Positions 24,782 through 35,551 of a stretch of DNA of 41,260 bases are shown one piece after another (the first letter of the stretch is position 1; each line of letters starts with the position of its first letter). The position numbers and the translations under genes were made by a program. A model generated the notes under the pieces. That model made no database searches. It saw only the letters and a program-made list of their open reading frames with translations, and was not told the origin of the DNA. This DNA comes from a virus. Where the stretch lies: IMG/VR virus record IMGVR_UViG_3300045009_000035, positions 1 through 41,260 of that record. One strand, written 5' to 3'.

Positions 24782-25324
24782 ATGCCAACCGACATCGTTA
24801 TAGCAACCGACAAGCCCAACTACGCCACAAGCGGCCTTATCACGGCCTCAAACAGCACCTACGACAACGCCGTCCCCACGGCCACTATCCCGTCTACGAC
24901 CAGCCAGACGTTCCTCGTCCCGACGAAACTGGGCGACAAGCCGAGCCTGCTGCGCCTCGTCCCGTTCCACAGCGCGAACAACGCCACTACCCCGAGCGTG
25001 CGCGTGATCGGCTGGACCACCTACGTGCAGACGAGCGGCACCCCGATCTACGTTCCGACGCTGCTCGCCGATCTGGCGTGCGCGTACAACGCGACGGCGT
25101 TGAGCATCCCGAGCCTGTCGGTGAACGGCACGACGCAGTACTTCTTCCACGCCGTAACGGTCGGGACTGGTGTCCCCACGGTGAACGTGTACAGCCCCGG
25201 CACGTCTGCGGCTGCTGGCACACCGCCGGCAAGTGTGTTGCTCGACACGGTCGGCGTGCAGTACATCACGCTGCAATTTGAATCGAGCACGGGAACGATG
25301 GGCGCGTTCTATACCTTCATCTGA
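24782..25324 (+). CDS. Beta-rich tail-tip protein of unknown function
   Basis: A 180-residue protein, rich in Thr, Ser and Val with alternating strands (TSQTFLVPTKLGDKPSLLRL, PSVRVIGWTTYVQTSGTPIY, VGVQYITLQFESSTGTMGAF). There is no signal peptide and no catalytic motif. A jelly-roll or sandwich fold is likely. It lies between a holin-like gene and a Gly-rich adhesin and is probably a virion surface protein. I do not recognise a named family. Confidence 0.68.
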   Translation: MPTDIVIATDKPNYATSGLITASNSTYDNAVPTATIPSTTSQTFLVPTKLGDKPSLLRLVPFHSANNATTPSVRVIGWTTYVQTSGTPIYVPTLLADLACAYNATALSIPSLSVNGTTQYFFHAVTVGTGVPTVNVYSPGTSAAAGTPPASVLLDTVGVQYITLQFESSTGTMGAFYTFI

Positions 25325-25336
25325 ACGGAGCCTGCG

Positions 25337-26233
25337 ATGCGTTACAACGTCGGCAGAATGCGGCGTCCCATGCGCAGTTGCGCAACGTCGCAGCTCGTCG
25401 GGTTCGTCGCATTGGAGGGTGGCCCGTACATCCCTGAGATTCTCGTTGTTGCCGCTGGTGGCGGCGGCGGCGGAACGACCAACAATCAGTATGGCGCTGG
25501 CGGCGGTGGTGCTGGTGGGTATGTGTTCAGCAATTCGCTGACGCTTGTGCCAGGTAGCACATACACCGTGACGATTGGGGTTGGCGGCGGCGGGGCTACT
25601 GGTTCGGCGGCGGGCAGCGATGGCGGCAGCAGCAGTTTCACGGGTCTCACGACGGCTGTTGGTGGCGGCGGTGGAGGCCGTGGAAACGGTGCATCGTTGC
25701 CGGGTCGAGCGGGTGGATCGGGCGGTGGTGCTGGTGGGTTTGCCGGGCAGACTGCTGGTACGGCGACATCTGGTCAGGGCAGCAATGGTGGTTCGCCCGG
25801 CGCCGATGCATTCCCGTATCGCGGCGCTGGCGGTGGTGGCGCTACGGCTGCTGGTACAAACGGAAATGCTAGTAGTGGTGCCGGCGGGGCGGGATACACG
25901 TTTCAAGGCGCAACCTATGCAGGCGGTGGTGGCGGCGGTGCGACCAATGTTGGTCGTCCTGCGGGCGGCAGCGGTGTCGGCGGGTCTGGCGGTGACAGCA
26001 TCACGCAAACAGGCAATCCTGGATCTGCTAGCACCGGGTCTGGCGGCGGCGGTGCAGGATGCACTGGTGTTGGATCGGCGACAACGACTGGTGGAGCGGG
26101 CAGCAATGGTGTCGTTGTGATCTGCTATCCCGGCAGCGCCAAGCCCGTTTCCTACACAGGCACGATGACTACGACAACCGCAGGCGGTACTACAAAGCAC
26201 GTTCTCACCACCAGCGGGACATTCACGGCATGA
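25337..26233 (+). CDS. Glycine-rich adhesin-like tail protein
   Basis: A 298-residue protein dominated by Gly runs: VVAAGGGGGG, GAGGGGAGGYVF, TTAVGGGGGGRGNG, GGGGATNVG, GSGGGGAGCTG. The Gly blocks alternate with short strands (YTVTIGVGGGGATG, GAGGAGYTFQGATYAGGG) and the domain ends in SNGVVVICYPG, then a small C-terminal strand domain (TKHVLTTSGTFTA). This resembles Gly-rich domains of phage fibre tips, including T-even gp38-like adhesins that fold as polyglycine sandwiches. It probably sits at the distal fibre and affects host range. The long Gly-codon tracts make the antisense strand open, which explains shadow frames there. Confidence 0.8.
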   Translation: MRYNVGRMRRPMRSCATSQLVGFVALEGGPYIPEILVVAAGGGGGGTTNNQYGAGGGGAGGYVFSNSLTLVPGSTYTVTIGVGGGGATGSAAGSDGGSSSFTGLTTAVGGGGGGRGNGASLPGRAGGSGGGAGGFAGQTAGTATSGQGSNGGSPGADAFPYRGAGGGGATAAGTNGNASSGAGGAGYTFQGATYAGGGGGGATNVGRPAGGSGVGGSGGDSITQTGNPGSASTGSGGGGAGCTGVGSATTTGGAGSNGVVVICYPGSAKPVSYTGTMTTTTAGGTTKHVLTTSGTFTA

Positions 26234-26442
26234 TTTACGCGGCACAGATCGACCAGCGCAACATCGTCATCGATGTCATCGTTGTCGGCGACGAACATGG
26301 CATGGCATGGGTGCAGGACAACCTGCCGGGTCAATGGCTAGAAACGTCATCGTCTATGCGAGGCAAGTTCGCCGCCATCGGCGACGTATATGACCCGGCA
26401 CTAGACATGTTCACGACCCCTGTTGAGTCGGGGCGCGTGTGA
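26233..26442 (+). CDS. Small tail-fibre-associated protein
   Basis: A 69-residue protein starting at the ATG that overlaps the adhesin stop (ATGA). It begins YAAQIDQRNIVIDVIVVGD and continues with NLPGQWLETSS, a Gly/Lys loop and IGDVYDPALDMFTTP. This is the form of a small domain often found alone or at the end of fibre proteins in environmental phages, where the pattern is AQID-x-x-VV-x-VI then YD-x-x-x-D-x-F. It may help assemble the adhesin; no function is proven. Confidence 0.72.
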   Translation: MYAAQIDQRNIVIDVIVVGDEHGMAWVQDNLPGQWLETSSSMRGKFAAIGDVYDPALDMFTTPVESGRV

Positions 26443-26912
26443 GGTGGCTGGTACTAGTTCTGCTCGTCGGTTGCAGCCCTGTGGCTCGCATCGCGGACAG
26501 CACGAACGTCATCCGCGCTGAGGCTCGACTGCTCGTGGACCACGGTCAGGAGGTCGGCGACCAGGTCGTGGTGGACGGCGCTACACGCATCGACGAGGAG
26601 GCGGCGGCGATCCACGGCGAGCTGCCTGCGGTGCAGGACCGCGTGCCGGCGTGGCTGTCAACGCTCAAGTGGTGGGGTATGGCCGTGGCCGGCGTGGCCG
26701 TAGCGTTCATGCTGTGGCAGTCTGGGGCGTTCACGGCTCTGCGCATTGCCATCGGTTGGCTGCCTCGCAAGTCAATGGTGCAGGCCGAGATGGCTGCTGA
26801 TATGCTAGATCCTGCCCGCCCGGAATCCGAGCGGGAGTTTGTGGCGGCGATGCGGGCGCGTGACCCGGCATTTGATGCCGCCTACCGCAAGGTGAAGAAA
26901 GGCAGACAATGA
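26439..26912 (+). CDS. Putative unimolecular spanin / lipoprotein with membrane span
   Basis: A 157-residue protein with GTG start overlapping the previous stop (GTGA). The N-terminus MRWLVLVLLVGCS has a lipobox (L9-V-G-C12) for signal peptidase II. A periplasmic-type charged helix follows (about 20-72). A single membrane span lies at about 78-100 (WWGMAVAGVAVAFMLWQSGA), then about 55 charged residues. An outer-membrane lipid anchor plus an inner-membrane span is the plan of unimolecular spanins such as T1 gp11, which fuse the two membranes at lysis. The long tail after the span is unusual for that family, so this call is tentative. It implies a Gram-negative host. Confidence 0.6.
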   Translation: MRWLVLVLLVGCSPVARIADSTNVIRAEARLLVDHGQEVGDQVVVDGATRIDEEAAAIHGELPAVQDRVPAWLSTLKWWGMAVAGVAVAFMLWQSGAFTALRIAIGWLPRKSMVQAEMAADMLDPARPESEREFVAAMRARDPAFDAAYRKVKKGRQ

Positions 26913-27028
26913 TCCTCGCTAGCGCATTCTCCGACTTCCTTGGCAACCTTTGGTTCGCCGGCCTCGCTCTAGTCATCGGCGTGGCGGCAGGCTGGTTGCT
27001 CCGCGGCAAGTACGGCAACAAGGTCTGA
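26909..27028 (+). CDS. 39-residue single-span membrane peptide
   Basis: A very short gene starting at the ATG that overlaps the previous stop (ATGA). It encodes MILASAFSDFLGNLWFAGLA followed by more hydrophobic residues and the basic tail LRGKYGNKV. One membrane helix (about residues 13-31) with a positively charged C-terminus suggests N-out/C-in insertion. Tight coupling to the spanin-like gene and position just before the late terminator suggest a lysis role such as a small holin or antiholin. Function is inferred from layout only. Confidence 0.62.
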   Translation: MILASAFSDFLGNLWFAGLALVIGVAAGWLLRGKYGNKV

Positions 27029-27051
27029 TCCAAATCCCGCCAGTTGGTGGG

Positions 27052-27086
27052 CAGGCTCGGCGTGATGGCGCCGGGCCTGTTTTATT
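27052..27086 (+). terminator. Rho-independent terminator of the late operon
   Basis: Bases 27052-27062 pair with 27069-27079 (11 pairs, one G-U) around a 6-base loop, followed directly by TTTTATTT. It lies 23 bases after the last late gene. This is a textbook intrinsic terminator for + strand transcription. Confidence 0.85.
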
Positions 27087-27101
27087 TCATGCCAATGGAA
27101 A

Positions 27102-27138
27102 GCCCCCGGCTTCCCGCATCATGCGTTCCGCCGGGGGC
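27102..27138 (-). terminator. Terminator of the early (-) operon
   Basis: Bases 27102-27110 and 27130-27138 form a perfect 9-bp G/C-rich stem. The loop holds a further 4-bp stem (27115-27118 with 27122-27125). On the - strand the stem is followed by TTTCC. It lies 24 bases beyond the stop of the last - strand gene, back to back with the + terminator. Confidence 0.7.
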
Positions 27139-27162
27139 GAGAGAAATGACTGAGACGTCGTG

Positions 27163-27672
27163 TCAGCGTACCCGCAGGCTCGTGCCTCGGGGGAGCAGTG
27201 CGCATCCTGGCACCTGCTCACCAGCCTCAAGCGCAGCGCGAATCGCGTCCTTGTTCGGCTCGCGCTTGAGTACGACGAGCGCGTCATCCATGACTGCGAC
27301 CGCCGTAGGGTCGATCTCCAGCGGCTGCTTGCCGCCGTTCTGTGCCACGCTCAGGCTGAACCGCTCCGTGGCGAGCTTGAGGCGTCCGGTGGTCTCCATA
27401 GCCGACTTGAGGCGGTCCTTGAGGCGCTGTGCCAGGTTTGCGTCGGCGTCGGCGAGCGCACGGATGCGCTTGGCCTCGGCGACACGGGCGTCGGCACGGA
27501 CTTCCAGTTCGCGGATCAGGCCGCAGTAATCGTCGGCCTTCTCCTCAAGGGCTGCGTCGAGGCCTTCAAGGGTGGCGTCGAGTTCAGCCTGCACCTCTGG
27601 GCTGTCAGCGCCCGACTCCATGATGCGGTCGAGGATGTGGGACAGTGTGGTCGTAATTCCGTAGAGCGACAT
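27163..27672 (-). CDS. Siphovirus Gp157-like protein
   Basis: A 169-residue protein. The N-terminus SLYGITTTLSHILDRIMES is followed by a long acidic coiled-coil region (about 25-95, with LEEKADDYCGLIRELEVRAD and RALADADANLAQRLKDRLKS). The C-terminal beta part has TTGRLKLATERFSLSVAQNG, DDALVVLKREPNKDAIRAAL and EAGEQVPGCALL. This order matches the Gp157 family common beside phage recombination genes; in streptococcal phages Gp157 was linked to phage resistance, but its activity is not settled. It is the last gene of the ERF operon. DNA or recombinase partnership is inferred. Confidence 0.8.
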   Translation of the reverse strand: MSLYGITTTLSHILDRIMESGADSPEVQAELDATLEGLDAALEEKADDYCGLIRELEVRADARVAEAKRIRALADADANLAQRLKDRLKSAMETTGRLKLATERFSLSVAQNGGKQPLEIDPTAVAVMDDALVVLKREPNKDAIRAALEAGEQVPGCALLPRGTSLRVR

Positions 27673-27675
27673 GGT

Positions 27676-27960
27676 TTATGCCTTTGCCTTCTTGGTTCGT
27701 GCCTCTGATCGAGCGCGTGTCTTTGCGCGCAGTTCGCGGTGCAACGCGACTAACTCACGGCGGTGCGACTCGGCCTGCGATTTGGATGGGAACGGCGACG
27801 TGTAGTAGGTGACATGGCCGTTTGGAGCGATGCCGACAACCATGTACGTGTACGTATTGGACACGTATGTTTCGTCTGTTCGTGTGGTTTCACCCATGAT
27901 CGGGACCACGGCCACGACATAGCCAAGTGCGGTAGTGCGAATCTGTGGTTTGGGCTTCAT
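27676..27960 (-). CDS. Small unknown protein between ERF and Gp157-like genes
   Basis: A 94-residue protein. The first 60 residues are beta-like (ALGYVVAVVPIMGETTR, TYTYMVVGIAPNGHVTYYTS). The last 35 form a basic helix (SHRRELVALHRELRAKTRAR). The basic tail could bind nucleic acid. It sits 8 bases after the ERF stop and 3 bases before the next gene, so it is co-transcribed with recombination genes. No family recognised. Confidence 0.62.
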   Translation of the reverse strand: MKPKPQIRTTALGYVVAVVPIMGETTRTDETYVSNTYTYMVVGIAPNGHVTYYTSPFPSKSQAESHRRELVALHRELRAKTRARSEARTKKAKA

Positions 27961-27968
27961 CGGTTACC

Positions 27969-28745
27969 TCAGAAGGGGAGTTCGGTGGTAGGTGCGGGCG
28001 ACGGCGCCTGCCAGCGCATGATGGTCAGCGCGCCATCGACACGGGCAAGGTGGACCTTGGCGGTCGAGTCGATGTCATCCTTGGCGAACTGCACGTACTC
28101 CATCACGTCGGTGGTCATCCACGCCTTGCCGTGCGGCCCGTCGAACTGGATGGCGATGGGCTTGCCCTTGCGCTCTGCGACGCGCAGGATAGTGACCTCG
28201 CCCTCCCACTCGTCGGGGTACTCGTCTGCAGGCGGTGTAGGCGCCTTGGCGGGCGTCGTGGGGGCTTCGACGGTGGCGATGGGCCTTGCGACGGGCGCGG
28301 CCTTGGGAGCCGCCTGCGGGGCTGCGGCGGGGCGGTGCGACTCGCGGGGTGCCTGGCGGTCCTGCTCGCCGTCATCGTCCTCCTCGCCGACGATGCCGCA
28401 CACGGCTGCTGCGCTGTAACGACGCAGGTAGGTCACGAGGCTGCCGAGTTGCTGAACCGTGCCGCGTTCCGGGAACGGCATGGACACGGTCTCTGCCATC
28501 CACTCGCCGCTGACGTGCAGCAGGGTGGTCTCGACGGCCACGGTGTTGTTGTCCGTGTTGACGGTCTGCACCAGCGCGAGTCCGTTGCTGGCGAGCGGGA
28601 TGCGCACGGCGTTCAGGATCGCGCCGAGGCTCGCGTAGCGGTTGCGGAAGTGCGGGTTGACACTGTCAAGACGGGGGTTGGTGATGTGGGTATTTGCAGT
28701 CGCCAACGCCTTGGCAAGCTGCCCGATAGAAGCACTCGTTCGCAT
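27969..28745 (-). CDS. erf: ERF-family single-strand annealing protein
   Basis: A 258-residue recombinase of the ERF family, which anneals complementary single strands in phage homologous recombination. The N-terminal domain has SIGQLAKALATANTHITNP, NPHFRNRYASLGAILNAVRI, GLALVQTV and the conserved GTVQQLGSLVTYLRRYSAAA, followed by GIVGEEDDDGE. A Pro/Ala-rich linker leads to a C-terminal part and the acidic end TTELPF, which resembles an SSB tip. Two ATGs lie two codons apart; the second (28745) was chosen because GAGAGG is seven bases from it and only one base from the first. A promoter and inverted repeat sit just upstream. Confidence 0.88.
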   Translation of the reverse strand: MRTSASIGQLAKALATANTHITNPRLDSVNPHFRNRYASLGAILNAVRIPLASNGLALVQTVNTDNNTVAVETTLLHVSGEWMAETVSMPFPERGTVQQLGSLVTYLRRYSAAAVCGIVGEEDDDGEQDRQAPRESHRPAAAPQAAPKAAPVARPIATVEAPTTPAKAPTPPADEYPDEWEGEVTILRVAERKGKPIAIQFDGPHGKAWMTTDVMEYVQFAKDDIDSTAKVHLARVDGALTIMRWQAPSPAPTTELPF

Positions 28746-28765
28746 TGTCATTCCTCTCAAAGAAT

Positions 28766-28784
28766 GTCACGCACCATGCGTGAC
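28766..28784 (-). promoter_or_regulatory. Inverted repeat at the start of the ERF transcript
   Basis: A perfect 8-bp inverted repeat (GTCACGCA / TGCGTGAC) with a 3-base centre. It begins about 7 bases after the -10 box, so it is either an operator covering the start point or a hairpin at the very 5' end of the mRNA. The early operon promoter has a similar arrangement. Confidence 0.6.
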
Positions 28785-28790
28785 GTGCGG

Positions 28791-28819
28791 ACTGTATACG
28801 CCGCAATATAGTCTGTCAA
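28791..28819 (-). promoter_or_regulatory. Sigma70-like promoter for the ERF operon
   Basis: On the - strand TTGACA (28819-28814), a 17-base spacer and TACAGT (28796-28791). TATACA at 15-base spacing is an alternative -10. The -35 box overlaps the RusA stop codon, so the ERF-Gp157 group can be transcribed separately from the upstream early genes. It shares TTGACA and a G-rich ...AGTCC end with the promoter at 34241. Confidence 0.65.
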
Positions 28820-29241
28820 CGGGCAGCGTAAGAAATCGTGACAACAGTTTCTGACTTGTCGCCGAATCGTTTCATCGCGTTGAGGTATATGACCTGGCTG
28901 TCATCGCGGTAGATCACCCCGGTCAGCCCGTCGAGCAGTGCGCGGCACAACTTGTCAAGGTCAGGCTTTCCGGGCGACATTGGCGCTGATGCCTTGACCG
29001 CGCCGGCAGCAGTCTTGTGACTCTTTGGGCGCTCGATAACAAACTCGGCACTAACGGTCACGTCGCACTCAACTGGGGCGCTTGTGAACGCACGGCCAGC
29101 CTCATAGGCCACGACGGCCCGCCACGGTTTGACCCGCTTGCTTGACTCGATCAGCACTGTTCGCCCGTTGCGCAGGCGCACCATCCGCTTGCTGCCCTGT
29201 GGCGCAGCCAAGCCGGGCACGACGAACTCAATGACCGGCAA
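28816..29241 (-). CDS. rusA: RusA-type Holliday junction resolvase
   Basis: A 141-residue endonuclease resembling RusA, which cuts four-way DNA junctions. The N-terminus has FVVPGLAAPQGSKRMVRLRN (the family VPG-x-PAPKGR-like start). The catalytic region is PGKPDLDKLCRALLDGLTGV with Asp94 and Asp96, then YRDDSQV with Asp113 and Asp114; these acids bind the metal ion in known RusA proteins. Length is slightly above the E. coli enzyme. It probably resolves recombination or replication intermediates before packaging. The ATG overlaps the upstream gene by 14 bases. Confidence 0.9.
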   Translation of the reverse strand: MPVIEFVVPGLAAPQGSKRMVRLRNGRTVLIESSKRVKPWRAVVAYEAGRAFTSAPVECDVTVSAEFVIERPKSHKTAAGAVKASAPMSPGKPDLDKLCRALLDGLTGVIYRDDSQVIYLNAMKRFGDKSETVVTISYAAR

Positions 29242-29413
29242 GGTGCGCCTTCAGTTGCTGCTTGGTGGTATTCACGTCACGCATTGCTAGTGCCAATTCC
29301 ATCCGCAGGTGGACGATCATGTCGCGGCATTCAATCAGCAGCGGGCCGGGCGAGGGATGCGCGTCGATTCGCTCGACGATGTCATCCTCTGTTTCGCCCG
29401 GTGACGTCTGCAT
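29228..29413 (-). CDS. Small acidic-helical early protein
   Basis: A 61-residue protein, probably all helical: TEDDIVERIDAHPSPGPL, then IECRDMIVHLRMELALAMRD and a Lys/Gln tail. It overlaps the upstream stop by one base (TAATG) and the RusA start by 14 bases, so it is translated in a coupled series. No motif or family recognised. Confidence 0.6.
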   Translation of the reverse strand: MQTSPGETEDDIVERIDAHPSPGPLLIECRDMIVHLRMELALAMRDVNTTKQQLKAHLAGH

Positions 29414-29676
29414 TACACGTCCCTTAGTCCGTCAAGAAGGCGTGACAGCCTTGTTTGTGTTGCGGCTAGGTGCGCACGTGCTTGCATCTCGCGGACACGA
29501 ATGTCCTTGATTTCCTCCTCAAGCAGACTTGCCTGCACGATGCAACCTGACACAAATACCCTGCACTCCCGGAGGAGCGTCAGGGCATCGAGGTCAGGCG
29601 CATTGCCTGCAACGTAGGCATCAATGCGCGCTAGCAGTGTCTTCGATTCGCTCGTGTGCATCATCGTTCTCGGCAT
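29413..29676 (-). CDS. Small helical early protein
   Basis: An 87-residue protein with helices (KTLLARIDAYVAGNAPDLDA, LLRECRVFVSGCIVQASLLE, EMQARAHLAATQTRLSRLLD). It resembles the following 61-residue product in layout, suggesting the two could be diverged relatives. Three start codons are possible (29676, 29664, 29661); all overlap the HTH gene upstream. No ribosome site clearly decides between them. Function unknown. Confidence 0.58.
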   Translation of the reverse strand: MPRTMMHTSESKTLLARIDAYVAGNAPDLDALTLLRECRVFVSGCIVQASLLEEEIKDIRVREMQARAHLAATQTRLSRLLDGLRDV

Positions 29677-29812
29677 GGCGTGACCCGTTCACGATACGGC
29701 ATACCGCGCTGCGTGACACTGTGTAACGCTTGGCAATTTCGCCCTGCGGTTCACCATTAGCAACAGCTTGACGAATGGCTTCAACCGTTTCCTTGTCAAT
29801 TCGCTTCGGCAT
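29621..29812 (-). CDS. Small helix-turn-helix DNA-binding protein
   Basis: A 63-residue protein starting MPKRIDKETVEAIRQAVANG. A helix-turn-helix of the recombinase/homeodomain-like kind lies at about residues 24-42 (GEIAKRYTVSRSAVCRIVNG), with the usual EIA, small-residue turn and S-x-x-V-x-R-I recognition helix. A short acidic tail follows. It could regulate the early promoters or be an orphan DNA-binding module of the type attached to HNH endonucleases. The start at 29812 was preferred over 29833, which has extra unconserved-looking residues. It overlaps the CsrA-like gene by 17 bases. Confidence 0.7.
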   Translation of the reverse strand: MPKRIDKETVEAIRQAVANGEPQGEIAKRYTVSRSAVCRIVNGSRHAENDDAHERIEDTASAH

Positions 29813-29993
29813 CGTTGTCCTCCACATGCTCACGAATCACCCTGATCTCGCGTGGTGCGCACACGCGCACCTTAGTCCGCGCCTTCCCGAGCAGTTGGAT
29901 CACGGCCAGCACATGACCGTCGATCATCAGCACGGCATCCTCGTCCTGGCTGATCGCCAGACACACCTTCGTGAAGTTCTTCGGCATCTCCAT
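29796..29993 (-). CDS. csrA: CsrA/RsmA-like RNA-binding regulator
   Basis: A 65-residue protein, the usual CsrA length. It fits the CsrA strand order: VCLAISQDEDAVLMIDG (beta 1-2, where CsrA has L-x-L-T-R-x-x-G-E-x-x-x-I-G), VLAVIQLLG (beta 3), TKVRVCAPREIRVIREHVED (beta 4-5 and the AP-x-x-I-x-V-x-R-E-E signature). Arg54 occupies the place of the key RNA-binding arginine (R44 in E. coli). The N-terminal strand is the most diverged part. CsrA dimers bind GGA in hairpin loops and over ribosome sites to control translation. AAGGAAGG seven bases before the ATG at 29993 supports this start. It lies in the early operon, so it may act on early phage mRNA or host mRNA. Family call is from motif pattern only. 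Confidence 0.72.
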   Translation of the reverse strand: MEMPKNFTKVCLAISQDEDAVLMIDGHVLAVIQLLGKARTKVRVCAPREIRVIREHVEDNDAEAN

Positions 29994-30210
29994 TGCAGCA
30001 CCTTCCTTGGTTGAGTTCTTCGACCAGTGCTTCCATAGCACTGAGCATGTTGTGTGCTCGGTTTGACCACTCGTCAACAGCGTCGGGCGCACCTACGGAC
30101 AGATCGGCAACCTTGGCGCGCAGCCTGCAGATTTCGGCGGCAGCCTTCATGCAGTCGGCATCCGTCATCCAGGTTGCGACACGGTACAGCCTGTCAACAA
30201 TGTCGCTCAT
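29872..30210 (-). CDS. Small early protein overlapping the CsrA-like gene
   Basis: A 112-residue frame. The first 65 residues look genuine (SDIVDRLYRVATWMTDADCM, KAAAEICRLRAKVADL, MLSAMEALVEELNQG), a pattern seen in many small phage helical proteins. The last 40 residues (GCRADDRRSCAGRDPT) look like an out-of-frame reading of the CsrA-like gene, which this frame overlaps by 122 bases. Either the tail is tolerated junk or the original stop was lost. The start overlaps the previous stop (ATGA). Confidence 0.58.
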   Translation of the reverse strand: MSDIVDRLYRVATWMTDADCMKAAAEICRLRAKVADLSVGAPDAVDEWSNRAHNMLSAMEALVEELNQGRCCNGDAEELHEGVSGDQPGRGCRADDRRSCAGRDPTAREGAD

Positions 30211-30422
30211 GCGTCCCTCGCTTCGTGTTCTTGGATGGCCGACAACAGCTTGACCATGCGTTCCTTTAGGTGCTTGACCTCCGCGGCAAGCCGTTCAATC
30301 TCAGCTGCAGCCTCTGCACGTTCGTTGTTGCCGCGCTCTGACATAGTCGCCCACGGGATGCGCAGGCGTTGAACGATTGGCAGATTGCGCTGCATGGCAC
30401 GGGTGGCGTGTTCTTGGTTCAT
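30207..30422 (-). CDS. Small coiled-coil early protein
   Basis: A 71-residue protein from the ATG at 30422, two bases after the stop of the SSB-tip protein. The first 25 residues are basic (ATRAMQRNLPIVQRLRIPW). The rest is a strong coiled coil (AEAAAEIERLAAEVKHLKER, then MVKLLSAIQEHEARD). A longer upstream reading overlaps the previous gene and is not credible. Function unknown. Confidence 0.6.
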   Translation of the reverse strand: MNQEHATRAMQRNLPIVQRLRIPWATMSERGNNERAEAAAEIERLAAEVKHLKERMVKLLSAIQEHEARDA

Positions 30423-30424
30423 GA

Positions 30425-30694
30425 CTAAAATGGGATGTCGGTGTCTGGGGTCGGGGTGTGCGGACGCGGAGACGGACGGGCAGCCGGCGCGGCTCGCGGA
30501 GCCTCTGCCTGCTCGCGTGGCTCGCTGAACTTGAGCGACAGGAACTCGGTCCCCTTGCTTGAGGTCTTGACCCATGCAGCGATATCAACCATGCGACCGT
30601 TGATCATCGCGTTGCCTCGCCAGTCCGGCTGGCGTTCGTGTTGTTTGCGGTTGGGGAACAACGCCCCGCTGTCATCCTTCGGTTCGTACGGCAT
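30425..30694 (-). CDS. Small protein with SSB-like acidic tip
   Basis: An 89-residue protein. The N-terminal half has MPYEPKDDSGALFPNRK, PDWRGNAMINGRMVDIAAWV and KTSSKGTEFLSLKFSE, a small beta domain seen in many phages and sometimes annotated as DUF736-like or single-strand-binding-like. A Pro/Ala/Arg-rich linker ends in TPDTDIPF, nearly identical to the C-terminal tip of bacterial SSB (DDDIPF), which docks host repair and replication proteins. The ATG at 30694 was chosen because AAAGGA is six bases upstream; the longer form from 30718 lies further into the methyltransferase gene. It probably binds ssDNA or mimics SSB. Confidence 0.72.
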   Translation of the reverse strand: MPYEPKDDSGALFPNRKQHERQPDWRGNAMINGRMVDIAAWVKTSSKGTEFLSLKFSEPREQAEAPRAAPAARPSPRPHTPTPDTDIPF

Positions 30695-32948
30695 TGCCTG
30701 TCCTTTCGTAATTATCAATGCGCTCTCCGATCCAAGCCATCACGTTGACGGCCATGCTGTTGCCAAGCGCCTTGTAGCGCGGCCCGTCTGGGCAGTCATC
30801 GGCGGTCTTCTTGCGCCACGGGATCATCGTCCAGTTGCGCGGAAATCCCTGCAAAAACTCGCATTCTGTGGCCGTCAATCGACGCACGGTCATTGCGTTT
30901 TTTGACGTTGGCCGCGAAACATCAACGGGTCGCCGTGCCTCTTGAATCTCTGATAGTGCTTGTCGCAGAATCCCAACCCCTTCACCGGAGCACCACAGAT
31001 GGTGCATGAGCCTTTCGGCCTGTGGCCCCGGACATGGCAGCTGCGACAAATACGCTCCAAGTTGCCCGGCGAGTTGTTGAGGTAGTTCCCGTCGCGATGG
31101 TGAACATCCTTCGCCTTCGGCTTCCCGCACCGACTGCACGGCCCAGGCGGCACGATCTTCCGGGCGTGATATCGCGCAGTCGATGGGCCAACTACGGCTG
31201 AATGTCGCGCATCGAATGCCCTTGCCATGCAGACGCGACCGCAGTACTTGCGACGGTTGAAGTGAATCAAGTACTCCAAGCCCCCACGCGGCAAAGGCTT
31301 CCTCTCCAATTTCGTCCCGCAGAACTCGCAATGTCGCAATGGCGTTGGCTTCTTGTGTGCTGGCATGATCGCCATTGTACCCTTGCTGCTGCAAGGATTG
31401 AACAGGCACAAGCGGCGTCCCTCGCCCTGTACCGTCCTCGCTTGCGTCAAAGCCTTCGGCGCGAAGCGTGTGCGCGACCGCGACTTGTCCACCGCCGTTC
31501 GCGTGACTTCCGTCGTGCGACATTGAGCGCATCGTCGGGGAAATAGATGAGGCATCTCCTCCGTGATCCTTGCACGTGAATGCGATGACGGTCATCGGCG
31601 TGTGCGCCACCGCTGGCGGCGAAGGGATGCCGATGCCGCTTCCGACCTTTACCGCTGGCGAAACCTCTGGGTGCTGATTCACGCCGTGCGTTCCACCCGT
31701 GCTGTAGAAAGCGTGCGCCACCGCCTGCATCACGGTCGGCCCGCTTGCGTTGATGCTTGATCCCGGCGTACCCATCGTCGCCGCCACGTCACCCGTGATC
31801 GCGCCGTTGTAGCAGTCCGTGCCGTAGGCCACCGCCTGCTTGTTGTTGCCGCCACCGCCTGCCTCAAGCGTGCAGGCGACGCCTTCCTGTGCGCCAAGGC
31901 TCCGCGCTTCTGCTGACTGTCCGGGCTTGAACGCCACCGCAACCATCGGAGTGTTCCGTCCGCTAGGGTTGCTATTCGTGTTGACGGTTCCCGCGACTGC
32001 GCCCGTCCGCACCTCGCCGACTTGATTCTGCGCGAACGCCACCGCCACCGTTGTCGCCCGCACGTCGCCCTGGTCGAACAGCGACAGCGTTGGGTTGACT
32101 GCGCCCTCTACCCATGTCTCATCGTCGGTCGCGGACTGGGCGCGCTTGGACTTCGTGAACGGGACGGGTTGCGGGATGTACGCGCCGTGCCCGTCTAGTT
32201 CCGTGTGCGACCGCAGTCCGCGATTGCCGAGCGTCGAGGCGACGGGTTGCAGCGTCAGGTTCTGGCACTCGTCTCCGGCTGGCTCCCCGGTTCCCTTGCT
32301 CCACTTGCTGCACACGCTTGCAGCGCAGACTCCAGCATCGGCGGCAGGCTCTTCCCGCGTCGCTCTGCGCGGCGCAGAATCCCGCTGCACGCTTTGGGAC
32401 TCAAAGAGAACCGAGGCGGCAGCGGTTGGGTCTCCAAGACATCCGACAACGAAGATACGTCGCCTGCGCTGCGGGACGGCGCGTGGATGCCGTTGTGTTC
32501 GCACCCATTGAGCGTCCAGCACCCGGTAGGCCCACCCATACCCCAGTTCCCCCAGCGCCCCGAGGAAGGCACCAAGATCCCGTCCTGATCCTGATGACAA
32601 GACACCGGGGACATTTTCCCAGACAAGCCATCGAGGCCGTAGACGTTGAGCGATCTCAAGATAGGTGAGCATGAGTCCGCCTCTGGGGTCAGAGAGACCT
32701 CTGCGGAGTCCTGCGACGCTGAAGCTTTGGCATGGAGTTCCGCCGACCAGAAGGTCAACTGATCCGGGTCCGAGGTTCCATTCTGCATGACGAGTCATAT
32801 CTCCAAAGTTCGGGACATTGGGAAACCGATGCGCGAGGACCGCGCTCGGGAACGCTTCGATCTCGCTGAAGCCGACTGGCTGCCACCCGAGGTGATGCCA
32901 CGCCACACTTGCGGCCTCGATGCCGCTGCACACGCTCAAGTATCGCAT
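30672..32948 (-). CDS. C5 cytosine DNA methyltransferase
   Basis: A 758-residue Dcm-type methyltransferase. Motif I is LSVCSGIEAASVAW (SAM binding), motif IV TPCQSFS with catalytic Cys73, motif VI ENVPG at 111-115, motif VIII QRRRRIFVVG at 160-169, and motifs IX-X at the C-terminus (VRRLTATECEFLQGFP, RYKALGNSMAVNVMAWIG). About 430 residues of repeat-like sequence with VAVAF, VAHTL and QAVA units lie between, holding the target-recognition region. The segment just before motif IX overlaps an HNH gene in another frame. Start 32948 has AGGAG eight bases upstream. It may protect phage DNA from host restriction. No cognate restriction enzyme is seen. Confidence 0.9.
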   Translation of the reverse strand: MRYLSVCSGIEAASVAWHHLGWQPVGFSEIEAFPSAVLAHRFPNVPNFGDMTRHAEWNLGPGSVDLLVGGTPCQSFSVAGLRRGLSDPRGGLMLTYLEIAQRLRPRWLVWENVPGVLSSGSGRDLGAFLGALGELGYGWAYRVLDAQWVRTQRHPRAVPQRRRRIFVVGCLGDPTAAASVLFESQSVQRDSAPRRATREEPAADAGVCAASVCSKWSKGTGEPAGDECQNLTLQPVASTLGNRGLRSHTELDGHGAYIPQPVPFTKSKRAQSATDDETWVEGAVNPTLSLFDQGDVRATTVAVAFAQNQVGEVRTGAVAGTVNTNSNPSGRNTPMVAVAFKPGQSAEARSLGAQEGVACTLEAGGGGNNKQAVAYGTDCYNGAITGDVAATMGTPGSSINASGPTVMQAVAHAFYSTGGTHGVNQHPEVSPAVKVGSGIGIPSPPAVAHTPMTVIAFTCKDHGGDASSISPTMRSMSHDGSHANGGGQVAVAHTLRAEGFDASEDGTGRGTPLVPVQSLQQQGYNGDHASTQEANAIATLRVLRDEIGEEAFAAWGLGVLDSLQPSQVLRSRLHGKGIRCATFSRSWPIDCAISRPEDRAAWAVQSVREAEGEGCSPSRRELPQQLAGQLGAYLSQLPCPGPQAERLMHHLWCSGEGVGILRQALSEIQEARRPVDVSRPTSKNAMTVRRLTATECEFLQGFPRNWTMIPWRKKTADDCPDGPRYKALGNSMAVNVMAWIGERIDNYERTGNAVRTEG
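30890..31375 (-). CDS. HNH endonuclease overprinted on the methyltransferase gene
   Basis: A 161-residue protein in the second frame of the methyltransferase gene, same strand. A first zinc-ribbon has C16-x-x-C19 and C45-x-x-x-C49. The HNH core has C80-x-x-C83, HH at 92-93 (KDVHHRDGNYLNNSPGNLER), N105, then C110-x-x-C113-H114 and H118. A third ribbon has C124-x-x-C127, C137 and DKHYQRFKRHGDP, which is usual at the end of such phage nucleases. AAGGG lies four bases before the ATG at 31375. In a 38-codon sample third-position GC is about 74% in this frame and about 45% in the methyltransferase frame. It is probably a homing-type nicking nuclease. Chance assembly of this many ordered Cys/His ligands is unlikely. 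Confidence 0.8.
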   Translation of the reverse strand: MAIMPAHKKPTPLRHCEFCGTKLERKPLPRGGLEYLIHFNRRKYCGRVCMARAFDARHSAVVGPSTARYHARKIVPPGPCSRCGKPKAKDVHHRDGNYLNNSPGNLERICRSCHVRGHRPKGSCTICGAPVKGLGFCDKHYQRFKRHGDPLMFRGQRQKTQ

Positions 32949-33349
32949 CGCGCCCACTCCTTCCGCGCTTTGGCTGCGTAGCCGTCGGTCGCTTTCCGGC
33001 GCTTGGTCGCGCCGGCGGGGCCGCCGTTGTGAATGCGTGCGCACTCGTCAATCGTCCACGTTTTGCAGTAGCGGGACAGGTACGCGATCACGACGCGCTC
33101 GGCGTACTCGCGATCGGTCACGGCCTCATAGCCGCGCTCACGCAGGCTCGGGTCATACTCGCACGCATCGACCCAGTAGACGCGCCAGACCTGATACGCG
33201 CCGAGCGCCTTGCCGCCGTCGCCGACGGCGCAATCAGGGTCGCGCTCGCCGCCCGTCTCGACGACCTGGAGCGTGTCGAGGATGCGGCGCACATCCGTGC
33301 CGGCGGGAGGCGGGACGGTCATGGAGGCAGCGAGGAGGGCGGCAATCAT
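32936..33349 (-). CDS. Muramidase / i-type-lysozyme-like endolysin
   Basis: A 137-residue lysozyme-like protein. After a short hydrophobic start (MIAALLAASM) come LDTLQVVETGGERDPDCAVG (candidate catalytic Glu31), GKALGAYQVWRVYWVDAC, DREYAERVVIAYLSRYC and the signature ARIHNGGPAGATKRRKATDG. The G-x-YQ-x-x-x-x-YW-x-D and RIHNGGP motifs match destabilase/i-type lysozymes used by phages as endolysins. It would cleave peptidoglycan glycan chains. The hydrophobic start is short for a secretion signal, so export may depend on a holin. It overlaps the methyltransferase start by 13 bases and the upstream stop by 4 (ATGA). Its place in the early operon, away from the lysis group, is unusual. Confidence 0.8.
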   Translation of the reverse strand: MIAALLAASMTVPPPAGTDVRRILDTLQVVETGGERDPDCAVGDGGKALGAYQVWRVYWVDACEYDPSLRERGYEAVTDREYAERVVIAYLSRYCKTWTIDECARIHNGGPAGATKRRKATDGYAAKARKEWARCDT

Positions 33350-33657
33350 TTGGCACCTCGACGCTCAATTGCATTGAACAGACCAAAGCTATTTGTGATG
33401 GTGTCCTGAATGTCCTGATGCAGCGACTGCAACGCGACTGCCTTGCCATCAACAAACACCTCGTCAACGGTGTAGTCAACGAGTTCCGGCCATTCCTCGT
33501 GCGACACCTGACCCCAGTTGTCGAACTTGGCGCGCTGCGCCATGCGCCAGGTCGCAGTAACAGCCACCGTGACCTCGTGTTCGACGAGCGTGTCAATGTC
33601 GGTCGCCCAATCCACAAGGAAATCGGGTTCTACCTCAATGGTCAGTTCGGTTTTCAC
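33346..33657 (-). CDS. Small acidic early protein
   Basis: A 103-residue acidic protein: KTELTIEVEPDFLVDWATDI, a Val/Thr-rich strand (VEHEVTVAVTATWRMAQR), a Trp-containing loop (FDNWGQVSHEEWPELVDY) and a VDEVFVDGKAVALQSLHQDI segment. An alpha/beta fold is likely. It overlaps both neighbours by four bases (ATGA type). No family recognised; the acidic surface would fit a DNA-mimic inhibitor but there is no direct support. Confidence 0.62.
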   Translation of the reverse strand: MKTELTIEVEPDFLVDWATDIDTLVEHEVTVAVTATWRMAQRAKFDNWGQVSHEEWPELVDYTVDEVFVDGKAVALQSLHQDIQDTITNSFGLFNAIERRGAK

Positions 33658-33956
33658 TTGAGCCTCCAGACTCGGATGATGCGTCCATGCGTCGAGGGGC
33701 GTTCGCTACGCACGACGCGCCCGGTCCATTCCATGCCCTTGAACACGCTGCCAGCGGCGTTGCCGAGCGCACCGTAGTCCAGGCCACGGCTAGCCATCAT
33801 CATCGCCACGTCATCGGACGTGGCCTCGCCGTTGATGTCACACGACTCACGCGCCAACCGCTGGGCCTGCGCGAGCAACCATTCGCGTCCGTTCTCGGCG
33901 TTGGCTAGTCCTGCGTTGCGCCGCCGCTGTGCTTCCATGTAGTCGAACAAATTCAC
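33654..33956 (-). CDS. Small early protein, GTG start
   Basis: A 100-residue protein starting with GTG that overlaps the previous stop (GTGA), with GGAGG six to seven bases upstream. The N-terminus is helical (NLFDYMEAQRRRNAGLANAE, then NGREWLLAQAQRLARESCDI). A winged-helix-like end follows (SDDVAMMMASRGLDYGAL, MEWTGRVVRSERPSTHGRII, RVWRLK). The alternation of helices with a final Gly-Arg-x-x-x-W hairpin suggests a small nucleic-acid-binding winged helix, as in some phage HNH-adjacent or vsr-like accessory proteins. This is inference. Confidence 0.65.
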   Translation of the reverse strand: MNLFDYMEAQRRRNAGLANAENGREWLLAQAQRLARESCDINGEATSDDVAMMMASRGLDYGALGNAAGSVFKGMEWTGRVVRSERPSTHGRIIRVWRLK

Positions 33957-34198
33957 GCCACACCTCCCGCGGTCGTGAGGGTTGACGGAAACGCATTCGT
34001 CAGCGGCAGGCCCATGCGGCTGCGCCAAGCGTTGATCGTTTCAATCTCATTCAGCGCGTGGTCCCATCCGTGGACCTCAGCGACGCGGTTAGCAGCCCAG
34101 ACAATCGGCGTCGGATCGTAAACGCCAATGCCAACGCCATAGAACGTTGCGAGCATGTACTTGGTGTGGTACGCGAAGTCGTTGATGTCGTAGCTCAT
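33953..34198 (-). CDS. First gene of the early operon, unknown
   Basis: An 81-residue protein from the ATG at 34198, with GAGAGG six bases upstream. The sequence SYDINDFAYHTKYMLATFYG, DPTPIVWAANRVAEVHGWDH and NEIETINAWRSRMGLPLTNA is mixed helical with several aromatic residues. As the promoter-proximal gene it would be made first after infection and could be a host-takeover protein. A longer frame from 34360 crosses the promoter and was rejected. No family recognised. Confidence 0.65.
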   Translation of the reverse strand: MSYDINDFAYHTKYMLATFYGVGIGVYDPTPIVWAANRVAEVHGWDHALNEIETINAWRSRMGLPLTNAFPSTLTTAGGVA

Positions 34199-34214
34199 TT
34201 GATTCCTCTCGTTG

Positions 34215-34237
34215 TGTGCCAGCATCCTGCTGACACA
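34215..34237 (-). promoter_or_regulatory. Leader hairpin with AGGAU loop (CsrA-site-like)
   Basis: In the - strand transcript, 34237-34229 pairs with 34223-34215 (nine pairs, one U-G) around the 5-base loop AGGAU. CsrA/RsmA proteins prefer ANGGA in hairpin loops. The next GGA, in the Shine-Dalgarno GAGAGGA of the first early gene, lies about 20 bases downstream, a spacing a CsrA dimer can bridge. The hairpin also overlaps the predicted transcription start, so a DNA operator is an alternative reading. Confidence 0.6.
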
Positions 34238-34240
34238 TGG

Positions 34241-34270
34241 ACTATATGCGCTGATATATCGCGCTGTCAA
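34241..34270 (-). promoter_or_regulatory. Early operon promoter (sigma70-like)
   Basis: On the - strand a perfect TTGACA (34270-34265), an 18-base spacer and TATAGT (34246-34241). It lies 43 bases upstream of the first early ATG. It should fire with host RNA polymerase immediately after DNA entry and drive the operon from 34198 leftwards. Confidence 0.78.
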
Positions 34271-34296
34271 CACATCAACTTGAGAGATTCTGCAAA

Positions 34297-34326
34297 TTGT
34301 TTCGTTGCTGCGGTTTGCGTTATACG
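34297..34326 (+). promoter_or_regulatory. Possible divergent promoter for the phosphoesterase gene
   Basis: TTGTTT (34297-34302), 18 bases, then TATACG (34321-34326), 20 bases before the ATG at 34347. The match is weak and is offered because the gene is divergent from the early operon and needs its own promoter. Confidence 0.35.
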
Positions 34327-34346
34327 GATTCGTAGATTGATGTCGC

Positions 34347-35261
34347 ATGGCCGTCAACATCGTGCAACACTACCCAGGCTCGTTCACGATTGAGATGAGC
34401 GAGGACAGCGAATCCATCGTTCCATCAGCTGACTGGGAGCAGTATTTCCTGCTGATTTCTGACGCGCACATTGACAACGCACACGCCGACCGCGCCATGT
34501 TCGACCGACACATGCGGCTGTGCCGCGAGCGCAATGCCAAGTGGTTGAGCAATGGCGATTTCATGTGCTTGATGCAGGGCAAGTACGATTTGCGGTCAGA
34601 CACCTCGGCCTGCCGGCCCGAGCATCAGCAGGGTCGATACCTCGACGCTGTCATCAGGACCACTGCTGACTACATCGCTCCGCACGCGGACATGGCTTTG
34701 CTGTTTGCGCCAGGCAACCACGAAACTGCCATCAAAAAGCGACACGAGACGGACATGAACGAGCGTTTGGTGGAGGCGTTGCGACATCGCAGGGCCGCCG
34801 ATTGCCAAGCCTACGCCGGCAGTTACGCGAACTGGGTGCGGTTTCTTGTTAGGCAGCGTAGCCGGCGGCAACTTGTGGGCGGTAGCGTCGTGATGTACAT
34901 GCACCACGGGTACGGCGGTGGCGGCCCGGTCACTCGTGGCACCATCCAGACCTCGCGCATGGCTGTCTATCTGCCTGACGCCGACATCATCTGGACGGGT
35001 CACACTCACGATGAGTGGATCATGCCGATTCAACGTGCGCGGCTCTCGCCGCATGGTCGTGCCTACCTCGACCGAACAATGCACATCCGTTCGCCTGGAT
35101 ACAAGGACGAGTTCAGCGAGCAGAACGGCTGGGCTGTTGAGCGTGGTATGCCACCAAAACCGAAGGGCGCTTTGTGGTTGCGGTTCTACATGGAGAACAC
35201 GAGGAATCACAACAACATTCCGATGCGCACGCTACGGTATGAGGTGCGTGAGGCACAGTAA
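34347..35261 (+). CDS. Calcineurin-like metallophosphoesterase
   Basis: A 304-residue enzyme with all metallophosphoesterase motifs in order: LISDAHIDN (Asp39, His41), SNGDF (Asp71), PGNHET (Asn124, His125), MHHGYGG (His186/187) and WTGHTHDEW (His219, His221). These residues bind two metal ions in the family. Phage members include RNA/DNA phosphatases and cyclic-nucleotide phosphodiesterases, so the substrate cannot be given. It could act in nucleic-acid repair or in degrading host defence signal nucleotides. It is the first gene of the rightward middle block. The N-terminal 30 residues precede the fold and look like an add-on. Confidence 0.87.
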   Translation: MAVNIVQHYPGSFTIEMSEDSESIVPSADWEQYFLLISDAHIDNAHADRAMFDRHMRLCRERNAKWLSNGDFMCLMQGKYDLRSDTSACRPEHQQGRYLDAVIRTTADYIAPHADMALLFAPGNHETAIKKRHETDMNERLVEALRHRRAADCQAYAGSYANWVRFLVRQRSRRQLVGGSVVMYMHHGYGGGGPVTRGTIQTSRMAVYLPDADIIWTGHTHDEWIMPIQRARLSPHGRAYLDRTMHIRSPGYKDEFSEQNGWAVERGMPPKPKGALWLRFYMENTRNHNNIPMRTLRYEVREAQ

Positions 35262-35284
35262 CTAGCCGTCTAGGAAGGACAGAT

Positions 35285-35551
35285 ATGGCAACACCAGCAA
35301 AGGGCAAGAGGTTCGTCAAGATGGTCCGCAACCCCGAAACCGGGCGCACCAACAAGGTGTCATACGGTCAGGCCGGCAAGGCCAAGGGTGGCGGTGATCG
35401 CATCAAGCCTGGCACGTCGAAGGGCGATGCGTACTGCGCTCGTTCGTTCGGCCAGATGAAGGACAATCCCAAGGCAGCGCGAAATCCGAACAGCCCGCTG
35501 CGGCTTTCGCGTGCGAAGTGGAAGTGCAGCGGCAAAACTTCAAGGAAGTAA
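35285..35551 (+). CDS. Small basic conserved phage protein
   Basis: An 88-residue strongly basic protein: KGKRFVKMVRNPETGRTNKV, SYGQAGKAKGGGDRIKPGTS, KGDAYCARSFGQMK and a C-terminal NSPLRLSRAKWKCSG. Versions of this protein, with the same KVSYGQAGKAK and GTSKGDAYCARS elements, occur in many environmental phages. It has two Cys near basic loops but no full zinc site. Function unknown; the charge suggests nucleic-acid binding. AAGGA lies upstream of the ATG. Confidence 0.75.
   Translation: MATPAKGKRFVKMVRNPETGRTNKVSYGQAGKAKGGGDRIKPGTSKGDAYCARSFGQMKDNPKAARNPNSPLRLSRAKWKCSGKTSRK

Follow-up and report, generated by a model that had tools for sequence, protein, structure and literature searches.

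The leaders of E. coli ompA and papA begin with a 5' stem-loop that leaves few or no unpaired bases and keeps the downstream ribosome site free. According to the account in PMC3997798, mRNAs gain stability from a hairpin at the 5' end, which hinders RppH, and the Bacillus enzyme requires two or more 5' bases to be unpaired. In CsrA/RsmA targets (glgC, hcnA, flhDC), a GGA in a hairpin loop is joined by a second GGA at the ribosome site. The CsrA family also has members in phages: Bcep22-like phages carry such a gene in a podovirus, JC1 gp47, which lies between the portal and capsid genes and gives a clear Pfam match, as reported in PMC9144972.

How does the locus described here compare with these systems? 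The window, by which we mean the whole stretch of DNA analysed, comprises the 41,260 bases of an IMG/VR virus record. Its hairpin resembles the ompA and papA leaders in the 5' stem-loop, in the few or absent unpaired bases and in the free ribosome site, but unlike them it is a family-wide element that stands at two or three promoters, covaries in its stems and has a recurrent apical loop; its shielding role is one that we infer. Like the CsrA/RsmA targets, the window combines an AGGA, presented by the hairpin loop, with a GGA 21 nt away in the ribosome site; in contrast to those targets, the phage loop has its GGA only in the window's clade and without an A at -2, and the other copies and branches lack it. 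Unlike JC1 gp47, the CsrA-like gene of the window lies in an early gene run, is strongly diverged and falls below the Pfam cut-off. The 5-bp stem and pentaloop of the relatives with loop AUGAC presumably resemble lambda boxB (nut), with HK022 put RNA as a further comparison; in contrast to both, the phage hairpin is located at or next to +1, no boxA was seen and no antiterminator was found. A literature search for phage start-site hairpins, narrow and therefore a weak negative, retrieved no such report.

Two promoters of the window and their hairpins

On the minus strand, P1 and its leader occupy the space that separates a metallophosphoesterase gene pointing rightward (34347-35261; Pfam Metallophos) from a run of genes pointing leftward. 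The first gene of the P1 operon encodes 81 aa (33953..34198, minus strand) and is without Pfam or PHROG match; it is followed by a lysozyme-like (Destabilase) gene, a long ORF, the gene for a CsrA-like protein of 65 aa (29796..29993, minus strand), a small helix-turn-helix gene (29624-29800, minus strand; HTH_23/resolvase-like, with a weak KorA match) and rusA. That the operon encodes a CsrA-like protein had been stated in the preliminary description of this DNA; the gene is about 4.2 kb from P1, on the downstream side. The small helix-turn-helix gene overlaps its end.

P1 (34241..34270, minus strand) is composed of TTGACA at 34270-34265, an 18-nt spacer and TATAGT at 34246-34241, with 11 of 12 matches. 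Its spacer contains CGATATA (34255-34261, minus strand), the search anchor for 55 P1 leaders. After TATAGT the minus strand reads, in order, CCA UGUGUCAGC AGGAU GCUGGCACA CAAC GAGAGGA AUCAAAUG. We thereby recovered the two elements first described here, a 9-bp inverted repeat with loop AGGAU (34237-34215, minus strand) and, behind it, GAGAGGA (34210-34204, minus strand), which by its sequence would be the ribosome binding site. From the GGA of the loop to that of the ribosome site we count 21 nt on the sequence.

With +1 taken as the seventh base after the -10, transcription from P1 is predicted to start at G34234. Because this is the usual distance from the -10, the outer three pairs of the dyad, located upstream of +1, would lie outside the RNA. 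The 9-bp RNA hairpin originally proposed is accordingly shortened to its inner six pairs, GUCAGC-AGGAU-GCUGGC (34218..34234, minus strand), whose first base is the predicted +1. Its placement at the head of an early mRNA holds, the predicted start coinciding with the stem base and the hairpin being conserved in relatives; nothing in the sequence points to transcription beginning beyond the hairpin, which the preliminary description had named as a refutation. An RNAfold model contains the six inner pairs plus an A-U pair that closes a GGA triloop.

The dyad alone yields one match, where 17 of 100 shuffles also have a match at no more than 3 mismatches. The short transcript core folds with z = -3.0 (p = 0.01) and a 94-nt minus-strand fold of the leader with z = -0.25, so that only the core is exceptional and the stem is unexceptional over the wider leader. 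A plus-strand fold at the same site was discarded (z = -0.06). Rfam 15 gave no match at the hairpin (window 33000-35500) and none over gathering in 8 relatives. It is conservation that makes the case for the P1 hairpin, the dyad by itself being modest, and judged by its sequence we take the hairpin to be real.

P2 (TTGACA-17-TACAGT; 28791..28819, minus strand; 10 of 12 matches) stands at the end of rusA. The unit behind it is headed by the gene for an ERF-family single-strand annealing protein (27969..28745, minus strand; Pfam ERF E=8.5e-18, PHROG Erf-like E=1.4e-40). Here too a hairpin, GUCACGC-AUGGU-GCGUGAC (28766..28784, minus strand), has the predicted +1 (G28784) as its first base. In L161, a close relative, the P2 stem reads GUCACGC-AUGGU-GCGUGGC, a change from U-A to U.G that keeps the pair. 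A promoter scan of window positions 25000-35000 returned two sites, both with a hairpin. That P2 repeats the feature speaks against a switch belonging to P1 alone.

Leaders of related phages

Relatives were collected by scanning viral contigs with the metallophosphoesterase, which gave 80 loci, and by further scans with the first gene, the terminase, the CsrA-like protein, an alignment and two DNA patterns. Bacterial genomes scanned for the metallophosphoesterase yielded none, and a direct nucleotide search of annotated phages gave no match. The nearest genomes in the terminase scan were those of Ramlibacter, Dechloromonas and Comamonadaceae (64-68%), plus others, from which we guess that the host of the window phage is betaproteobacterial. 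The hairpin pattern was not found in the loci scanned for it, which were 8 of the 60 from the terminase scan and four phage loci; the more distant terminase loci L332-L338, L343, L162 and L163 have no start-site hairpin under the search pattern used, and the distant phage L261 has one promoter-like stretch, without hairpin.

With CGATATA as anchor we assembled 55 distinct P1 leaders. Those found through the loop pattern GCRYGTTGC were used for stems and position and not for loop conservation. Eleven pattern matches were left out as due to chance (L266, L269, L271, L274, L284, L285, L291, L296, L298, L310 and L321), and four further stretches were excluded for want of a ribosome site. L005 also has an AGGAT loop in a sequence that is cut off, and stands outside the 55.

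CGATATA is common to all 55 leaders, being also part of the search pattern, and is absent from the window's P2. It lies eight bases from the -10 in nearly all leaders and six in L317 and L038. In some relatives it falls within a palindrome, TATACAG-GG-CTGTATA, that overlaps the -10 and is perhaps an operator. A hairpin follows the -10 in 55 of 55 P1 leaders, though the first gene differs between branches: the window's 81-aa gene is not common to the other branches, whereas the leader hairpin is. L004 and L161 keep the leader directly before the gene that is second in the window. In predicted folds of the 55 leaders the first paired base is +1 in 29, +2 in 19, +3 in 6 and +4 in 1. For L014, the lowest-energy P1 fold is a different pair of helices and not a single hairpin.

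Shape is retained while letters change. The stem of the window, GUCAGC-AGGAU-GCUGGC, has as counterparts GUCAGC-AGGAA-GCUGAC (L006), GUCAAC..GCGUU..GUUGAC (L078), GUCAAUG..ACGUU..CAUUGAC (L268), CGCACGC..GCGUU..GCGUGCG (L022) and GCCAC-AUGAC-GUGGC (L018). The apical loops are short, usually with G in third place: among the 55 they are GCGUU (17), AUGAC (14), ACGUU (13), GUGUU (4) and AGGAU (3), with AGGAA, AUAAC, AUGUU and GCGU once each. AGGA thus occurs in only 4 of 55 distinct leaders, all in the window's own clade, which makes the GGA loop a local form. In L018 and its relatives the AUGAC of the P1 loop has the same letters as are found at the start codon (GGAUGACAUG).

For a second set, stretches from all loci qualified by their promoter and ribosome site whether or not a hairpin was present, and CGATATA promoters were excluded. 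It comprises 41 distinct promoter-to-ATG stretches, one of which, L328 at 5526, really belongs to a third, rightward promoter type. All 41 have a hairpin, with the first paired base at +1 in 36, +2 in 1, +3 in 1 and +5 in 3; the stem starts within +1 to +3 of the predicted start in 54 of 55 P1 and 38 of 41 P2 leaders. For L017, the lowest-energy P2 fold is not the single hairpin. The P2 loops are GCGUU (20), GCGU (8), GUGGU (5), GUGUU (2), AUGGU (2), ACGUU (2) and two others.

A covariance model built from six P1 leaders and run on 70 sources (1.04 Mb) also matched 3-4 kb downstream in the same operon. L017 scored E=2.6e-4 and the others E=0.02-0.5, individually weak; each of these downstream matches lies at the +1 of its own sigma-70-like promoter and has a different stem. 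Two further weak matches, in L054 and L133, are not at promoter starts. The third copy is found on a rightward promoter in a few relatives (L059 at 12631 on the plus strand, L072, and L328 at 5526 on the minus strand), ahead of a small gene; its start-flush hairpin has outer arms GUGUCGC/GCGACAC and an inner ACGUU loop. L014 and L017 have a similar site of this third type with loop GAGGU, starting at about +4.

Stem covariation and controls

Do the stems change in a manner that preserves pairing? In the gapless P1 group A3, four pairs have both partners changed: two from A-U to G-C, one from U-A to C-G and one, which 3 of the 6 rows do not form, from G-C to C-G. In A3, 92.4% of cells are paired as against 18.5-62.1% when the arms are slid, and 0 of 500 shuffles reach the observed paired cells and covariation score. 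In A4, also P1 and gapless, three pairs have changed on both sides and 88.3% of cells are paired (28.3-56.7% slid). Both groups consist of six rows chosen by equal length, with the structure taken from their own folds, a procedure that favours structure. Group A5 has one pair changed from A-U to G-C, with the G.U form also present, and despite this compensatory pair shows no covariation excess over shuffles. In the window clade (A6, four leaders) the inner six pairs are intact throughout (24 of 24 cells), while two of the outer three decay; the only change is U.G versus U-A, without excess over shuffles. The P2 group A9 does not exceed shuffles in covariation either.

Exact complementarity of 5 bases to downstream sequence begins at +1 or +2 in 13 of 17 representative leaders, whereas positions from -15 to -1 give 0 to 5 of 17; a separate, promoter-internal peak is seen at -16 (11 of 17). 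At +1 alone the count is 9 of 17 against a shuffled mean of 2.2, and 1 of 2000 shuffles is as high. Under a strict single-hairpin rule, 11 of 13 P1 clusters qualify (genomic mean 5.2, maximum 10 in 300 draws), as do 8 of 10 P2 clusters (genomic mean 4.3, maximum 8 in 300 draws). These folding controls are not overwhelming, because GC-rich DNA folds easily. Of 74 distinct promoter-like sites (at least 10 of 12 matches, many plainly inside genes), 46 have a flush hairpin, versus 32% of random positions. We place the main weight on the coincidence with the predicted +1 at different promoters, on covariation and on the independent recovery of P2. At the level of sequence, comparison of the leaders establishes the hairpin structure, that it recurs and where it stands with respect to the promoter, as well as the covariation of the P1 stem and the turnover of the loop.

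Possible functions of the start-site hairpin

Our preferred explanation, held with modest confidence, is that the conserved 5'-terminal hairpin shields early mRNAs from 5'-end-dependent decay in the manner of ompA; the decay step is the part that we infer. Early sigma-70-type promoters of this phage group, namely the two of the window, P1 and P2, and in a few relatives a third that points rightward, would place the hairpin at or within a few bases of the transcription start, as deduced from promoter spacing. With few or no unpaired 5' bases, the host pyrophosphohydrolase RppH and the 5'-end-sensing RNase E would be unable to engage, and because they could not engage a paired 5' end, the early polycistronic mRNAs capped in this way should live longer. 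The ribosome site, outside the stem, would be left free. Protection alone does not explain the strong conservation of the apical loop in most branches; the loop may be tuned for fast, stable folding or for a binder.

Such a binder is central to the next reading, in which every early leader would have its apical loop recognised by an RNA-binding protein of phage or host origin, which would set the timing of early translation or decay. It would account for an apical RYGUU that is kept in most branches while stems change, for a third loop base that is usually G, and for the finding that in most branches a genome has one loop class at both P1 and P2. The loops nevertheless vary between branches (AGGAW, AURAC, RYGUU, GCGU, GUGGU), no protein of matching distribution was found, and leaders from the scan that selected for RYGUU cannot be counted for loop conservation. 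We consider this reading unlikely.

The preliminary description had proposed a CsrA switch: feedback by the CsrA-like protein, or control by host CsrA, acting on the GGA elements of the loop (AGGA) and of the ribosome site. Either glgC-like repression or flhDC-like protection could result, since for flhDC it is reported in PMC7652899 that CsrA bound near the 5' end can protect mRNA from RNase E. The description referred to ANGGA loops as the sites that CsrA dimers bind. The loop of the window reads C-AGGA-U and the ribosome site G-AGGA; the A two bases before GGA is missing in both, so neither is ANGGA, and the shortened form of A(N)GGAX is the only one that they fit. An AGGAX pentaloop without the N binds RsmE more weakly (PMC4005645), and the AGGAU pentaloop on its C-G pair would be a weakened site in the sense of that account. 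The 21-nt spacing to a second GGA is in favour of CsrA control, as is the persistence of AGGA in four distinct leaders of the window clade. These four are near-identical, however, so that loop conservation there may be mere kinship, and GGA in a ribosome site is expected of any strong site. The relatives speak more clearly: 51 of 55 distinct leaders keep the hairpin, with covarying stems in A3 and A4, and have no GGA in the loop, an outcome that the preliminary description had itself named as refuting its reading.

The operon does hold a CsrA-like gene. Its protein matches Pfam CsrA in the window with E=0.049 and 14 bits against a cut-off of 27; of 40 records, 17 match PF02599 (E up to 1) at 11.6-25.1 bits, and 0 of 40 exceed the cut-off of 27. 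A profile of 11 relatives run against the PDB gave nine matches, all CsrA-family chains (E=0.0047-0.025). A46 and P47 (the AP pair) and R54 are invariant in 11 of 11 rows, and R54 aligns with the conserved RE arginine of CsrA. The N-terminal arginines that we take to be present in E. coli CsrA are not seen in the phage protein. CsrA is a domain-swapped dimer; modelled as a monomer, the CsrA-like protein has five strands and a short helix (pLDDT 83, pTM 0.61), and structure searches with this monomer gave a best Foldseek E of 0.59 and a best VIA Z of 5.5, with no CsrA chain among the matches listed. By its sequence it looks like a real but distant CsrA relative. The profile detects the gene in 18 of 40 records, once with an in-frame stop; many of the 40 are fragments, so its absence says little. 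The P1 loops of these 18 records are AGGAU (2), AUGAC (8), GCGUU (7) and GUGUU (1). Non-GGA loops in 16 of 18 records that bear the gene, together with the AUGGU loop of the window's own P2, stand against CsrA control even where such a protein is encoded. CsrA feedback as a general function was rejected on loop turnover and P2. Binding of CsrA to the window leader is possible; as the reason for the hairpin it is unlikely, and the switch as a whole we judge improbable.

A variant would have the start-flush loops read by the diverged CsrA-like protein of the phage, retuned from GGA to an RNGNN-type loop, with P1 and P2 operons co-protected or shut off together. The AGGAU of the window would then be the form closest to an ancestral CsrA site. 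We give this variant slim chances.

A DNA operator, with the dyad overlapping +1 bound by a phage repressor, is very doubtful. An imperfect palindrome does stand at the start of two promoters, and the operon contains a small helix-turn-helix gene (29800-29624). The arms, however, are variable and the centre conserved, the opposite of an operator; the P1 and P2 arms of one genome differ, pairing runs from +1 on, internal loops and bulges are present, and G.U states are seen. Barely plausible is a hairpin that acts on RNA polymerase (promoter escape, pausing, put-like antitermination or an N4-type hairpin promoter), to which its location at the very start of the transcript in several early operons would be suited, but it is a single short hairpin right at +1, and an N4-type promoter is unnecessary with near-consensus sigma-70 hexamers upstream. 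The 2923-aa protein (11246-20017, plus strand), a candidate in that connection, was set aside: it matches no polymerase family, its matches being LPD22 and the unknown-function PHROGs 9880 and 2563.

A GGA in a loop should not be read as CsrA control without checking relatives. The hairpin variants would form a ready-made set for asking what share of mRNA decay begins at the 5' end. Early messages of a phage must survive a nuclease-rich cell and, on the 5'-shield explanation that we prefer, a recurrent hairpin at the predicted start base, its shape kept and its letters changed, would be a natural, recurrent 5' shield of the ompA type.
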